Origin: Antedon mediterranea
Taxonomy: Eukaryota > Echinodermata > Crinoidea > Comatulida > Antedonidae
DNA: 64,000 nt
Assembly: GCF_964355755.1 (NCBI RefSeq)
Contig: NC_092674.1
Span: forward strand, 4,097,001-4,161,000
Direction: 5' to 3'
Part shown: positions 18,301 through 62,332 of the stretch, piece after piece
How positions within the stretch are numbered: position 1 is the stretch's first letter
Layout: each line of letters starts with the position of its first letter
Notes under the pieces: model-generated
The model's database searches: none
What the model was told of the DNA's origin: nothing
What the model saw: the letters and a program-made list of their open reading frames with translations, nothing else
Position numbers and translations under genes: made by a program

Positions 18301-21300
18301 CTGATCAACCTTCTGTTTAGCTCCATTTTCCCTCCTCTTTTTCCTCTTCACTTTTTATTTCTTCTTCTTCTTCTTTTTCTTTTCCCTCCTATTCCCTAAT
18401 TCCTATTTTCTTTTCCATCTTCTTTTTTTTTTCCAAAATCCATTCACAAAATTCTTCCTCTTTCTTCACTTCCTGTTTCTCCTCCTTTTCTTAATCCTTT
18501 ATTTCTCACCTTTTCTTATTCTCCCATTCCTTCTACTATTCATCTCCCTCATTTCTTCACTTTTCGTATTCCTCACAAATCTTTTTTTTCATTTCTATGT
18601 TGTAATTGCCTTTATAACCTTTATTAATTACCAAATAAAGACATTCAAAAATTCAAATTCAAAACTTAATACTTCATCTACTATTGTGACTGTACGGCGC
18701 TATTCTATACATGATTTTTTTCAGTATTTTCCCACATTTCTAAATATTGGTAATTGTATGGTTTGTGTGCTTTTTAGATTACAACTTACTTGGGTAAACG
18801 AGATTTTGTTGACCATCTAACGCACATCGATCCAGTTGGTAAGTACATCAGATTAACCAGTTTATATCCCCTAATCTTTACGATTACAAGTTAATTTATT
18901 CATTAGAAATTCATCATATAACCATCATATAATTAGCACAGATTTGAATGTTAATTACAGTACTTTTGATACAAATTCCATAATTTTAAAATATTTTAAT
19001 GAGATTTTCTTTTTAATTAGTAGTAAAAATATTCACCCAAAATATGTAGTTGTAGTAGTAATTACTGCAATTATCATACCCAAGTCTGTAATGGCTAAGA
19101 AATAAAAGAAATTATTACAAATTACAAATTTTTTTTTTAATATTTAAATACGACTCGCAGTACCATGTAAATATGTTTCTTCTGAAATTGCCTATGAATA
19201 TTTGCATTTTTTATGCAATCATCATAATTGATGATAAATATGAAAATTACATAATTTGACCTCATACTACTGTAAAACCCCATCTGGCAATGAAATTGTA
19301 TCTTTATTGTGTCTTTTTAAATGCACTCTTGGCTTGCCATACTTGCCAGTTTTGCAAATTGGCTATTATAAGACCAAACAATTAAATTCTAAAACAATTG
19401 TGCTGTTTACAATTTTTATCTTTTTTCAGAGTATGTTATAATTTGATAATTTAGAATTTAATAGCTTTTCAAATACGCCCACTCACAATCTTAGAATTTA
19501 TTGAAATAATTTTAACATATGTCTGAAATTTGTCAAAATCTTTTCACAACATGTATTGAATATTTTCAATAATTGTTACTTTCATCAGATGGTTTTTTAA
19601 TGAATACAAATTATTTTTTTTGTAACTGACATTATTACAAAGTGCATTGTGAGCATGAGCATATGTCTGTTCAATTTTGATTGGCACACTCTATACACCT
19701 GCGTCAATATTTTTATTATCTTTCTTTTTTTGCATTTTATATTTAAAAAAAATAAGAAATTATTGGTTCGTTTTTGTAAGAACAGTTAATAAAACAAATC
19801 ATACTTTATTTTCTTTTCTTTTTCTTTATTATTGAATCCATGTAAAAGATGTAAAACATGGGTAGTGTGTTCTAACTGTATCATTTATGCAAATCTAAAT
19901 TATTTAAATAATTACAGAAGAACCACTTTGTTTGGGACACTCCAATTCAGGAGACATCCCTATCAAGTGGAGAAGGAAAAAAATAATGTTTACCACTATA
20001 ACCAATCCCTATTTATTTTATTTTATTTTATTTATTTAATCGAAACCAACAGCGATAATTACCGCCACTAACAGGTTTGATACAAACAAAGCCAGGACTG
20101 TTTAAAGCACCTTGATTGGTCCTAACATTGATCAAGGGCTTCTCTCGTCCAGTGCCCACCTTGACCAGAGGTCTGAGGCAGATACTAGATGCAGGGGCTG
20201 CCATAAGAGTCAGCAGTGCTGATTTCAGTTAATAAAACAAATCATACTTTATTTTCTTTTCTTTTTCTTTATTATTGAATCCATGTAAAAGATGTAAAAC
20301 ATGGGTAGTGTGTTCTAACTGTATCATTTATGCAAATCTAAATTATTTAAATAATTACAGAAGAACCACTTTGTTTGGGACACTCCAATTCAGGAGACAT
20401 CCCTATCAAGTGGAGAAGGAAAAAAATAATGTTTACCACTATAACCAATCCCTATTTATTTTATTTTATTTTATTTATTTAATCGAAACCAACAGCGATA
20501 ATTACCGCCACTAACAGGTTTGATACAAACAAAGCCAGGACTGTTTAAAGCACCTTGATTGGTCCTAACATTGATCAAGGGCTTCTCTCGTCCAGTGCCC
20601 ACCTTGACCAGAGGTCTGAGGCAGATACTAGATGCAGGGGCTGCCATAAGAGTCAGCAGTGCTGATTTCAAATGCCTAACGGGACCCCAGCTTTGTATAC
20701 AGCACCCGTTATTCCCAGATGGTCTCCCATCCAAGCTCTAACCAGGCCCAACATCGCTTAACTTCGGTGATCTGACGAGAACCGGTGTTTCAACGTGGTA
20801 AAGCCGTATTAATTATAGGACACCCTTATTAAGGGAACACTTTTGGGTCCCAAATTTCTACTTATAATTTGTTTTAAATTAATTAGTAAAAGAATTTGAA
20901 TGCTACTTTACCCATGTGATCTCATTCTATTTGAATTAATCAAGCAATTGTTGTTTCTAGATGGTGTGGTACTCGTAGATCATGAATATTTAAAAGATCG
21001 CAAAGTATTTGCCCACGTGTTAGCAGCATTCCGATATGGCAGAGAAGACCTTGATGTTCTCGGTCTCACATTTCGTAAAGATTTATTCCTAGCCTCCATG
21101 CAGGTGTACCCACCGATTCCAGATGAACAGAAACCTTTGACACGCTTACAAGAACGACTGATTAAGAAGCTGGGCGCGAGCGCGTACCCGTTTTGTTTTC
21201 AGGTAAGGAAGATTTTGCCGTGTATATTCAAGACTGTGTGTCTTTTTATTTAGCTTACATGGATTTTAAGCATTATTATCTTAAAATGACATACTGTAGA

Positions 21301-54771: not shown

Positions 54772-57700
54772 TTATTTTTTGTAAGGTTTTGATGCAGGGC
54801 CTTCTCTCTCACGTTGGTATTCAGCTTCCATCTTAGTTTGCACATTCTCCCAGTTTACTTCAACCTGAAGAAAAAAACAAACAGGAAGTGATCAATCATG
54901 TACAGAACCAGACTTTTCCATTCCAACAAACTTTTTCCAATTTCCTATATTTAATTGTGTGCGACAGCTTGAACTATTATTTTAAAGAATGTTGAATTAT
55001 TTTCTACAACCATTTGATATCCTCTATGTATTTGATCCTTATCACTACCCTATGTTACATACCTCTTGTGAGAAATTTGTGAATCTTTTACTGGTTTCCT
55101 TCTTGTCGAACATTTCTAGGAACTTTTGTCTATGAGCAAGTACTGTGTCTACATGGGTCTTGTTCTTTACTGCTAATTCTAATGCTCTAAAGTTGAAAGC
55201 AAATAAATACAGTACTTTATTAATACAGTATAACACAAAGAATGACCAATGTATGTTCACAAAAAGAACTTGTAAAGGTAACCACGTTTGTATATTTATT
55301 CATCATAAATGCATGCCCACTTCATATATTGTACAATATCTAGAGATTCAACCAATCAAAGAACAGGAATTTGGTTAAATTTATGTGTCTGAGCATGTCT
55401 GTTTAATTTCTGAAGATTCAACCAATCAGAGCAGAGATTATGTCAAGACTATGTGTCTGAGCATGTCTATTGAATTTCTGAAGATTCAACCAATCGGAGC
55501 AGATATTATGTCAAGACTATGTGTCTGAGCATGTCTATTGAGTTTTTGAAAATTCAACCAATCACAGCACAGAGATTGTGTCAGACAATGAAAAAAATTA
55601 TCTAGATGAAGGGATGTGACTGTTATGATACACTGACACACACTGGCTTAAATTATTTGATTATTTAAAGAAAATAATTGGTTATGGAACTTATCGTGAC
55701 CAGAATACAAACATAAAAGCATGATGTTCACTACCAGGCAGTCAATTACTTGTAAACTAAGAGAAAAAGGTATGTTTTGAAAGATAGGCCTATATCAAAT
55801 TGATCTGTGTTTGGGGGCCTAGCTATATTAATTTTAGATACTTGGAAGCCATATGTCTGGTAGATTATTGTATGACAGTGAGTAGGCCTACCTATGTGGT
55901 AATGTTTGACCATACATTGCATCAATTGATCATTATCAAGTGAACAACAAAAAAACAGTATATTTTAGGCACAATCATGAGATAATAAATGAGTATTTGT
56001 TCTTAGAAAAATTAATATTTATACCTGTCCCAATTATATAAGTTAATATTCATCATGATGGCTCTAAATACCAAGTTGGCCTGAAGTAAGATGCCCTCTG
56101 CATCTTGAGCATTGCCACAAAACAAAGCCATCTCTGCATTCCGTGCTTCTTTTAATGGGATTTCTTTTATGTGCAGAATATACTGAACTTTATCTGCCTA
56201 AAAATAAACAAGACATCAAAATGGGGTTTTTTTCTGAGCAATAAAATAAAATGTTTCATAGTATTATACCTCTGATTAAAACAACTATTATATTGTTCAT
56301 ACACCAGTGTAGATGTCAATGTTGTATTTCGGAGTTTGTGCGAGGCAGTTGTTTAGACTTGAGTATAGTATTTTACCATAGGCATGGAATCTCCTGTACA
56401 ACCTCCTTACCTCCCTGGTCTCTCGGTAATAAATAGAGGGTGCTGTTGGCATAAAGAAAAACACCACCTCCCGTTTTTTTAACTTCAGATGTTGGCATGT
56501 ATGTTTTGCTAAAACTATGAATATTGACAGAAAATACATATAGTTTTATTATTCTGTATTAGTATTGCATTAGTTTTAATAATTCCTTTATCTAATATTT
56601 TTAATTTGCAAACCTCATCAATTGCAGCATAAGCTACCTCAGCTGTGGACAGGTCTTTAGCATATGCAGCCATTGTGGCCATGCATGCCCACAACACTGG
56701 ATCCTACACAAAAAGAAAAACACATTTTATTCCACATTATTTAATGCTTAAATTCAATCAAGTGACAAAAACCATAAATTGACTGAATTAGTAGTTTTGT
56801 CTTTTAAAATTTCAAATAACAGTTCAAATTAAGCAATGAAGATAATGTTGATCTTATATTAGATAAAAAAATATTTGCAAATCAAATATTACCTTCACAA
56901 AGCGGCATAGCCGTACAGCATCATCCCATCGTCCACTGCCAACTAGTTCATGCAGCATCGCAGGGTAAGGTACGATTCCGGTGCTCACCAAGGCTCCGTC
57001 CGCACGTCGTATGGTCACATGATTACCAACAAAACTAACAATCTGGGGATTCTTGCCAAAGTCACTAAAGAGAATGTAAAATGAGAGGCGTATTCACATG
57101 TCAGGTTATGTAGAAAAGAGATTTATTTTTGTTTTCATACATACAAACATACTCGGAGTAAAGCTCTGTTCACACTATCAAACTTTGTGACAAAAAATGT
57201 AATGTGCCCATATATGGATATGATGTCATATCACTACCATATTTGGGCACATCACACTTTTTTACCAAGCTAGTTTGACAGTGTAGCAGAGCTTTATGAA
57301 TGTACGTCTATTGTTAATTTTTGAAGATGTCTATTGTGGGTTCATACATATAGTCTATGTTTATAGTTTCACCAACTTAATTTAAAGTCATTTTTTGGTT
57401 ACCTGGTATCTTTGATGTAAATTGTTTTTGGTAGAATATCTTTGTCAACATACACAGCATTCGGATAAAATAGAACAAAGAGTTTGCTGTCTTGCAGAGC
57501 TGCTAACATATTAGTAGTGTCATTCCACGCTAGACTGGTTATCATATTACCTAGGTAACATAGAATTTAAAAGTAGATTTAAAGCCTGTTGACCAGGCAA
57601 ATTGCCAAGGATAACCATAAGCAAATTCATTCACTATAGTTCTTAAAGGTTGCAGTGGAGTCTTAGGGAGTAGAGAACCCAGGACCCTTGGATTGGTAGC

Positions 57701-60700
57701 CAGCATCAACTTTATACAGTTGAGAGATATATATATATGGATAAAGTGGTTGGAAAATTGACTGGGCAATCAGTTATATAAATACCTAGCTTAACAATGC
57801 GCGGCCCTTTTCCAAATGTTCGTACAGCACTCAGATACAAGTCTCTGTTTTTATCTACAATTGCTAGATGGCGTTCAGCTGGTGGGCCACAATGATCGAG
57901 AGCTACCTCTAGAACCTCAAGCTAAAGAAAAAAACAAGAAAAAGCATTATCTATTAGTGTATACTCTACTACTATTTTATCCTCATTTAACCATTCTGGA
58001 CATGGAAACTGTCTTTTTGAGATTCTTGGTCATTGGTAAACACTTGAAATTAAATAGAACATTAAACTTTAACCTTTGAACTTACATTATGTTGAATTGG
58101 CTTGCTGTCCAGTGCTTTTCCGTTTGATGCATCAAACACATGCACCAATTTCTCGTTGGATTTGTCACGGATGGCTACGGTGTCATTTGACACAGATAGT
58201 GACATCATATTCAGGGTGTCAAGGCGCATACCTTGGAATTTTGGAGAGGAGATTAGCCGACCCTATTAGAAAAACAACAATTGCTTAAAAACACTATTTA
58301 CATATGGAATGAAATTAGTTATATTTTGTCATCAACTAAAATTGTTGCAAAAAAAGATATGTTAGAAAAATATTTACCTCATAGGAATAGATATTGACAC
58401 CAGTTGATACCACTAAAGCAAAATGCCTGAAAACAAATTGTATAAAATAATTAGAGGCTATACAAATTATTTCTTTCTTACCCAGCCTATGCTCATTGTG
58501 AAAAGGTGCCTTTTTGTATACTTTGCATCCCCAGCCAACATTGTTATGAATTGCGATTCCTTTCACTCCTATTTACACCCCAAAACAACAAACTTAGGAT
58601 CAGAGAGCAGCAACCTTATATTAAATTAAATCTTACTTTTCAGCCTGGACGATTAGAGTAACAGTGCCCTCTTTCAGATCAAATATCGTTGGTGTGTTTA
58701 AATTCTTTGTACTGTAGATAAAACACTGCGAAGAAGTTACCACAACTAGGTAACCAAAAGATAAAGACATCTTGATGATACTGTCTCTGAATTCTAACTT
58801 CTCAATTGCTTCGTTGATGACCTCTCGTACAACAATTGTTTTTCTTGATGAGTTTACTACTTCAAAGTTTTTCCATTCCAGTCTCCTGAATGATAAAACA
58901 AAAATTCAGTAACATAATGATACTTACTAAATTTTATTATAAATTTAAAGCCAGTTTGCTACATCCCAAAAAGTCAACTCTCCCAATACCGGACACCATT
59001 GGGCTGGCCAAATATGTCTGGTTTTCTGGAAAGTCTGGTATTCTGAATGTGTTTTTAATGGTAAAATGAATTTAAGACTATTTGAACTTCAAGAAAAGTA
59101 TGGTTGGGAGAGTTTCCAGTTTTCAGAAAGTCTGGTATTTGGAGAGTTTACTGTACTATCAAAATATATCTCAAAGTTTTTTCATTTTACAGCAAATACA
59201 TAAAAAATATCTGTAAAAGATTGTTGATACAGTTTTTTTTTACTAAAATGAACAAAATGGTACCTTTCTATCATGTGACCAAATATGACATGGCCATTCC
59301 CACAAGCCCCTGCAATTTGTGTACCATCAGCACTCCATGCTATACTGTATATACTGCCTGTGTTTGGTTTCTCCAAGGCATGAGACCACTAGAAAAAAAC
59401 AGATAAAAAAGTTGATACAGCACATTGATATTTTAATGACGTGGTGCTTTCCTACCAATCTCAGAATCCTGGGTCTAGTCTAATAGTTGAATGTTATCCT
59501 CATAAAAAACTCCTCTCCCAAAGATTACTTTTAGTCGCGTGCAACGCAACTCTACACCTCAATAAGTCGGTCGGTTTTTTAGCACGCGACTGCAGCCATG
59601 TATATGTTTATTTTTCCACTATACATACAAACATTACACATTCGTCGAGAATGGGCTATTGTTGGTTTATCCAGGTAAGCTAGGCACGAAATAGACTTTG
59701 TGTTTCTATGATATAGATTACCACTAAATAGGACAGTTTTTGAATTAGCAAACACTTAATAAAGAATATGAATCTAGTCTTTTAAATCTCATTAATACAG
59801 TCATTATTTTGATCTTTGTTGCCGGATTATTTGTAATGACCATTATCTTACCCCAGTTTTGTCACATAATCTCAGCGTGTTAAAAGAACCAATAGCAAAG
59901 AGTTCTCCATCCGGTGCCCAAGAGACAGACGTGATTGGATAATCATGAGGATGACTCGAGAACATCTGGCGGCCATAGCTATCCCACACTTTGTACTTGC
60001 AATCTTCACCGCCGGACAATATGAGATTGTTTGATGGATTCCAATCAACTTTTAATATAACTCCATCATGGGCTTTCCACTAAAAAGCAAATAGTAGTTG
60101 TTAAGCTCTGTCTACACTACCAAACTTTATGTGTGTGATGTGACCATATATACACATGATGATGTCATATCATTAGCATATTTGGGCATATCACTAACAT
60201 ATTTGGGTACATCACAGTTTTTTTGTCAAACTAGTTTGATAGTGCAGACAGAGCTTCAGCCCTAAAATCTAGGGTTGCCTTTTTTTTTTTAATTGATATG
60301 CATCATTTCACAGGAAAATTACAGCACATTTTAGATGGGATTATAACCAAGGCGAGCTTATACAATTTGTCAGTATGCTTGCCTTTCAGCCACTGTAATC
60401 TTTAGATCAGAACCATGAAATAAATTTTTAGTATAAAAGAATTTTTTTTTTAACATTTTTTTATTGAAAAGTATTAGTAATGGTAAATACATACCTGGAC
60501 AGGTTTTACATTTGCTTGCAGTGATTTGATTATAAGTTGTTTGCTATTAGTCAGCAAAACTTGGTTAGAGTCAGGAGACCAGGATATCGAGTACACTGGA
60601 GTACCTACAAGAAATTAGTCATATATATAAGTTCTGAATACATGAACTACTCTTTGCAAGGGTGTGCAAAATAAACAGCCAGGGTATGCAAAATAAACAG

Positions 60701-62332
60701 CCAGTGTGCACAATAAACAGCCAGGGTGTGCACAAAAAACAGCCAGGGTGTGCAAAATAAACAGCTAGAGTGTGCAAAATAAACAGCCAGGGTATGCAAA
60801 ATAAACAGCCAGAGTGTGCACAATAAACAGCCAGAGTGTGCACAATAAACAACCAGAGTGTGCACAATAAACAGCCAGGGTGTGCACAAAAAACAGCCAG
60901 GGTGTGCAAAAAACAGCCAGGGTGTGCAAAATAAACAGCCAGGGTGTGCACAATAAACAGCCAGAGTGTGCACAATAAACAACCAGAGTGTGCACAATAA
61001 ACAGCCAGAGTGTGCACAATAAACAGCCAGGGTGTGCAAAAAAGCCAGGGTGTGCACAAAAAACAGCCAGGGTGTGCACAAAAAACAGCCAGGGTATGCA
61101 AAATAATTAGCCAGGGTATGCAAAATAAACAGCTAGGTTGTGCAAAATAAACAGCTAGGTTGTGCAAAATAAACAGCCAGTGTGCGCAAAATAAACAGCC
61201 AGGGTGTGCAAAATAAACAGCCAGGGTGTGCAAAATAAACAGCCAGGGTATGCTAAATAAACAGCTAGGGTATGCTAAATAAACAGCCAGGGTATGCTAA
61301 ATAAACAGCCAGGGTATGCAAAATAAACAGGGTCTGCAAACCAATTTCATATCACAGTTTTAGATGAATAACATGTTGCAAACCTGTTTGTGCAAGCGTT
61401 GACCGCAGCATACCACTCCTTGACCAGATCTTAACTTGACCATCTTCTCCAGCTGTTGCCATAGCCGACCCATCATAACTCCATCTACCAGAAAGAACCG
61501 CTCCCCTATGTGCTTCCACAGATTTTTCAACACGGCCAGATTTAGAAACCAACAAAAATTTTCCTATAACATAAAAAATTAAAGTTTTGTTTATCTTAAT
61601 AGCCATACAAAGAACAATTAACAAATATTTATTTTTTTTCCAAATTTAGTTTCATATAGTTATAAGAAATTTACGCACCATCTGTAGATGTCAAAACGAA
61701 TACTTCGCTCCCTGTTTGTTTTCCTTTACCGGCGATGCTCTTTGGAAAAAAGTGAATGTCTGTAGCGTAGATTTCCTCAGCCAGCTTGACCAGAACTGAG
61801 GTCTCATCTGACAATTGGCTCCATTTTAGAACCTGGTGGTCATCGCCGCATGAGAACAACTGTTCAGATGTAGTCCATGCTACACAGCTTACCAATTCAC
61901 TATGTGTGTTTTAGTTAAGGAAAATATTAGTTTTAATTTAATATATTGTCAGGCTCTACTACACTTTCACACTTACTGAGATTATCTTCAATATAGGGAT
62001 AGGTTCAGGCAAGTCAATCTAACAACAGGATTCTGAGCTCCAGAGATCAAAGGGTTTATCTGTGGCTGCGACACCATCAGTTCCACGCACCTTAACAGAC
62101 ACTGTACACCGCAGAGAATATTTAAATAGTACAGTACTGTTGGTATATCAGTCAGACAGTTACAAGTTCCTATCTTGGCAAGGGGAGCTCAGTGTCCTGT
62201 TGTTAGATTCCCTTGGTTCAGGCCACGGAAACCAGTAGCTAAAGATAGTCTGACATACTGTAGGTGATAAAGTCTAGATAAAATGATAAGGATATGTTTA
62301 GGCTCTTTGGCTAAGGTTGTCTTGAATCGCAT
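54772..62332 (-). CDS. IFT80: Intraflagellar transport protein 80, 16 exons, 771 aa
   Basis: IFT-B subunit needed for building cilia; two WD40 propellers followed by a helical C-terminal part. Exons (minus): 62332-62296, 61903-61679, 61563-61384, 60604-60495, 60079-59852, 59388-59264, 58885-58637, 58426-58378, 58262-58086, 57921-57786, 57550-57403, 57064-56893, 56703-56614, 56197-56025, 55186-55063, 54864-54772. All phases agree and the length is close to human (777 aa). Seen: [13 protein letters not shown] start, [87 protein letters not shown]. The first intron fits an AT-AC minor-spliceosome intron; all others are GT-AG. The C-terminus ends [11 protein letters not shown]. Confidence 0.97.
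55343..55590. repeat. 70-bp tandem repeat, about 3.5 copies
   Basis: AGATTCAACCAATCA recurs at about 55344, 55414, 55483 and 55553. Between these are TATGTGTCTGAGCATGTCT and AATTTCTGA segments. In an IFT80 intron between exons 14 and 15. Confidence 0.85.
57159..57296. mobile_element. MITE family 1, copy 15
   Basis: TAAAGCTCTGTTCACACTAT to GACAGTGTAGCAGAGCTTTA, with GGATATGATGTCATATCACT and CATATTTGGGCACATCACAC. In the IFT80 intron between exons 11 and 12. Confidence 0.85.
57580..57735 (-). mobile_element. tRNA-derived SINE-like fragment
   Basis: On the minus strand: TGGCTACCAATCCAAGGGTC then CTGGGTTCTCTACTCCCTAA, which resembles the B-box end of family B, followed by diverged body sequence. 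In the IFT80 intron between exons 10 and 11. Confidence 0.35.
60101..60257. mobile_element. MITE family 1, copy 16
   Basis: TTAAGCTCTGTCTACACTAC to GATAGTGCAGACAGAGCTT, with GATGATGTCATATCATTAGC and two CATATTTGGGCA-type segments. It begins 20 bp upstream (in gene sense) of IFT80 exon 5. Confidence 0.9.
60655..61340. repeat. 22-bp minisatellite filling IFT80 intron 3
   Basis: About 31 copies of CAGCCAGGGTGTGCAAAATAAA, with variants GTGCACAATAAACAGCCAGA and shorter AAAAAACAGCCAGGG units. It occupies nearly all of the 779-bp intron between exons 3 and 4 (60605-61383), leaving about 45 bp on each side. Three minus-strand frames of 104-204 codons are open only because the unit lacks stops; they are not genes. 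Confidence 0.95.
61904..62295 (-). other. AT-AC U12-type intron (IFT80 intron 1)
   Basis: In gene sense the intron starts ATATCCTTAT (62295 downward), the U12 5' splice site consensus. It carries TTTTCCTTAACT (61924-61913), the U12 branch-site consensus. It ends CACAC at 61904, 11 bases after the branch adenosine. Joining AAAC to ATAGTGAATTGG gives [14 protein letters not shown], the conserved IFT80 junction. No GT-AG pair nearby gives an equally good join. Confidence 0.9.
62016..62209. mobile_element. 194-bp inverted-repeat hairpin inside IFT80 intron 1
   Basis: Arms AATCTAACAACAGGATTCTG plus AGCTC (62016-62040) and the inverted copy at 62185-62209 match at 23 of 25 positions. The centre is non-repetitive. 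It may be a small MITE, and it could bring the intron ends together in RNA. Confidence 0.6.

Follow-up and report, generated by a model that had tools for sequence, protein, structure and literature searches.

The window, meaning the whole 64,000-nucleotide stretch of Antedon mediterranea DNA that was analyzed, contains the gene IFT80 on its minus strand (Table 1). In the gene model, the spliced product is 771 amino acids long and is encoded by 16 coding exons. Residues 1 to 301 match Chlamydomonas IFT80 (5n4a, 8bd7) from residue 1 with an E value of about 1e-106, the remaining protein matches the same Chlamydomonas chains (E about 1e-138), and the C-terminus matches the TPR_IFT80_172 family (PF23387). 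This full-length match, including the TPR_IFT80_172 domain, identifies the gene as an IFT80 orthologue. It is present as a single copy in the 354-Mb genome that was searched, the one other match being weak (37% identity over 79 residues). All 14 of the introns numbered 2 to 15 are of the GT-AG type, most of them with a pyrimidine-rich 3′ end, and the sole exception in the gene is intron 1. A 22-bp minisatellite occupies most of intron 3. Two short upstream open reading frames (ATGCTGATTTCATAG and ATGTGTGACTGTCAGAACCAATAA) lie in the leader directly before the IFT80 ATG and are themselves preceded by what may be a 3′ splice site, TTTTTAAATTCAG; further upstream there may be a non-coding first exon.

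Table 1. Features of the IFT80 locus and other elements of the window (positions are those of the window)
Feature	Position	Strand	Remarks
IFT80 exon 1, coding part	62296..62332	-	ATG at 62332; 12 residues plus first base (C) of codon 13
IFT80 intron 1, almost certainly U12-type, AT-AC	61904..62295	-	392 nt; phase 1, inside codon 13 (C|AT)
5′ splice site ATATCCTT	62288..62295	-	exact U12 consensus, matching [AG]TATCCTT
Branch site TTTTCCTTAACT	61913..61924	-	exact motif; genome position C5:4158913-4158924
AC 3′ terminus of intron 1	61904..61905	-	nearby AC/AG ends checked for frame
In-frame GT-AG alternative (GTATGT...CATAG)	61900..62258	-	adds 12 residues; weak score
IFT80 exon 2 (SELVSCVAW...)	61679..61903	-	no methionine
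IFT80 intron 2	61678-61564	-	GT-AG
IFT80 exons 3-16 and 13 more GT-AG introns	54772..61563	-	stop codon 54774-54772
Leader with two short upstream open reading frames	62380-62333	-	
22-bp minisatellite	60659-61330		about 31 copies, 90% matches
5S rRNA gene	20694-20811	-	single, complete match; 81 bits

Intron 1 starts with ATATCCTTAT and ends with TTTTCCTTAACTAAAACACAC in the minus-strand sequence of the window. Its placement in codon 13 of IFT80, and its extent, are as given in a preliminary description of this DNA, which had also called the 5′ end, the branch site and the AC located 11 nt from the branch adenosine close to the U12 consensus; the donor and the branch site are in fact exact. 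The motif TTCCTTAAC is found near the 3′ end by virtue of the exact TTTTCCTTAACT, the distance from the branch A to the last intron base is 11 nt, and the terminal sequence, AAAACACAC, ends in AC and lacks a polypyrimidine tract. Among the nearby AC and AG ends, only the AC at 61904 keeps the frame with the intron 1 donor, while ends at 61906, 61908 and 61900 lead to a stop after 14 to 17 residues. Downstream of the intron, the reading frame picks up at 61903 as AT-AGT-GAA-TTG. Joining 62296 to 61903 produces a protein that aligns without a gap to the solved Chlamydomonas IFT80 structure (5n4a), with VHSEL opposite KHSEL, and the conserved protein thus continues in frame across the junction. 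The methionine that the preliminary description had placed in exon 2 (MVSC) does not exist; its codon is TTG and the frame reads ELVSC, the next in-frame methionine after the IFT80 start being residue 122, in exon 3.

Counting both strands of the 354-Mb genome, there are 83 copies of the 12-nt branch motif, a frequency of about one in 8.5 Mb of strand; in the 64-kb window, ATATCCTT is present four times when both strands are counted, or about once per 32 kb. Multiplication of these frequencies suggests a probability on the order of 1e-10 that both motifs stand where homology requires them, well beyond chance. Within the window, intron 1 of IFT80 is the only place where an RTATCCTT donor is followed by an exact TTCCTTAAC within 5 kb. 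Genome-wide, neither the branch motif alone nor the donor motif alone was enriched over its reversed form, and the evidence therefore lies in the combination of the motifs and their position. A donor-to-branch pattern with a gap of 40 to 60 nt turned up at three sites and its control at four, a result that carries no information.

Removal of a U12-type intron calls on the minor spliceosome, and the genome was found to contain genes for U11, U12, U4atac and U6atac: one U12, two U11, one U4atac and one good U6atac gene, all scoring above the Rfam cut-offs. A degraded second U6atac copy (L008 1501-1602, 33.7 bits) is probably a pseudogene. The U12 sequence GUAAGGAAAA is complementary to UUUUCCUUA(A)C of the IFT80 branch site with one A bulged, and AAGGG of U11 and AAGGA of U6atac are both complementary to UCCUU of the 5′ site. 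These pairings were read from the sequences, with duplex folding serving as a rough guide only. PDCD7-like exons are also present in the genome, as are exons for U11-48K-type zinc fingers, which constitute weaker evidence because that family also matches one archaeal control.

For calibration, a 1.5-kb upstream stretch was read at 80 of the 82 other perfect TTTTCCTTAACT branch motifs in the genome. A same-strand ATATCCTT was present in this interval at 2 of the 80 loci and GTATCCTT at one, while the opposite-strand version of the search returned nine, so that the upstream motif count itself represents background. At both ATATCCTT loci, an AC end follows 11 nt past the branch A and open frames are joined at the exact junctions. 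One of them (L101) joins its exons in frame into a conserved protein, an FKBP, as judged by homology across the junction; the other (L102) is ZNHIT1, in which the junction ...PQRHFCNVCG-FPSNYTCVSCGARYCCVKCLGTHQDTR aligns without gaps to 8x15. In this small sample, each pairing of ATATCCTT with the branch motif coincides with a real exon junction. Like IFT80 intron 1, the ZNHIT1 and FKBP introns carry a ATATCCTTT donor, the identical TTTTCCTTAACT branch site, an AC at a distance of 11 nt from the branch A, and an exact junction within a conserved protein; they differ in belonging to other genes and in being longer (roughly 0.65 to 0.77 kb). Judged from these signals and junctions, the genome is home to further predicted AT-AC introns resembling that of IFT80. 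The GTATCCTT/branch pair (L030/L103) has no open frames at its junction and was not accepted as a U12 intron within coding sequence.

Minor introns in IFT80 have been described before. Human IFT80, IFT88 and IFT74 are minor-intron-containing genes that are down-regulated when ZCRB1, a minor-spliceosome protein, is reduced (PMC13216214), and a studied IFT80 intron of human and naked mole-rat lacks canonical splice sites (PMC7730772). The crinoid intron shares with the human one the gene and, probably, the minor class. AT-AC introns make up about 26% of human minor introns, minor introns are biased away from phase 0, and most deuterostome groups have minor-intron densities like those of vertebrates (PMC10639083). 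Compared with U12-type AT-AC introns in general, IFT80 intron 1 shows no difference of substance, sharing the ATATCCTT donor, the TTCCTTAAC branch site, a short distance from branch to end, the AC end and a phase other than 0. Because a minor or non-canonical intron in human IFT80 and the deuterostome minor-intron densities had already been reported, IFT80 intron 1 is most simply read as the orthologue of the known human minor intron. Very probably, the gene inherited this intron, which would then be a known trait and not a novel phenomenon. The U12-type reading of the preliminary description is supported by signals and homology; the novelty that it implied is not supported, and a link of cilium genes to the minor spliceosome had already been published. 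We consider it very unlikely that the minor intron occupies a position unused in vertebrate IFT80, through independent gain or relocation, or that alternative use of the AT-AC pair (62295-61904) or a GT-AG pair (62258-61900) yields a second isoform with 12 extra residues.

Between exons 1 and 2, this GT-AG pair is the only one in frame, and its use would put 13 residues in place of HS. That intron 1 is an ordinary U2-type intron spliced at 62258-61900, giving a product with 12 extra residues, is very improbable, even though the pair is in frame, introduces no stop and has an acceptable GTATGT donor. When scored with a generic U2 matrix built on approximate frequencies from general knowledge, the pair reached a combined score of -4.6, the weakest in the gene, whereas in the other IFT80 introns the top candidates scored 2.1 to 15.8; its acceptor, which has no pyrimidine tract, scored -4.8, the lowest in IFT80. 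In the scan of intron 13, a spurious internal donor came out on top at 3.9, with the chosen pair at 3.5. Furthermore, splicing at 62258-61900 would disrupt the gapless match to Chlamydomonas IFT80 and would leave two exact, correctly placed U12 motifs unexplained. We do not think that 62258-61900 is the main splice; it might be chosen infrequently, for a possible minor isoform.

We give scarcely any credence to exon 1 lying outside the main transcript, with IFT80 starting elsewhere and the U12-like motifs arising by chance: the short upstream open reading frames ahead of the ATG would fit such an arrangement, but exons 1 and 2 together form the IFT80 N-terminus from residue 1, the coincidence of both motifs at these positions is again of the order of 1e-10, and a start downstream of exon 1 would cost 121 residues of the first propeller, since exon 2 contains no methionine. 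A small number of AT-AC introns depend on U2. Both intron classes include AT-AC members (PMC7367187), yet with an exact U12 donor, a U12 branch motif and no pyrimidine tract, there is next to no probability that the major (U2) spliceosome removes this one.

Collectively, the position, codon phase, protein homology and exact motifs, the absence of any competent GT-AG alternative and the presence of a minor spliceosome indicate that intron 1 is almost certainly a real U12-type AT-AC intron. It lies where a single-copy IFT80 orthologue begins, and most likely it was passed down from an ancestral animal. From the genomic sequence, we infer that splicing would take place at the AT-AC pair. U11, and then U6atac, would pair with ATATCCTT, and U12 would pair with TTTTCCTTA(A)C, leaving a single bulged A as the putative branch nucleophile. 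The joining of C|AT would then create His13 of IFT80. If the intron were retained, translation would stop after 47 residues, and IFT80 output would for that reason be predicted to depend on the minor spliceosome.

The locus provides a clean case of a first exon hidden by an AT-AC intron from gene finders that assume GT-AG. An IFT80 model without the AT-AC intron would either drop 121 residues and start at Met122 or carry a spurious insert of 12 residues. The intron also contributes an invertebrate genome to what is known of how ciliary genes depend on the minor spliceosome, and it leaves current understanding unchanged.

Several other elements were noted in or near the window. SMC4 is the divergent neighbour of IFT80 in vertebrates; assignment of the divergent neighbour beyond the window as SMC4 was not supported, its first exon matching no Pfam family when joined on trial to a guessed second segment. 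The window also contains a 5S rRNA gene match (Table 1). Just past the window end (L020 2161-5651, minus strand), reverse transcriptase-like and tyrosine recombinase-like open frames resemble, by eye, a DIRS-type retroelement.
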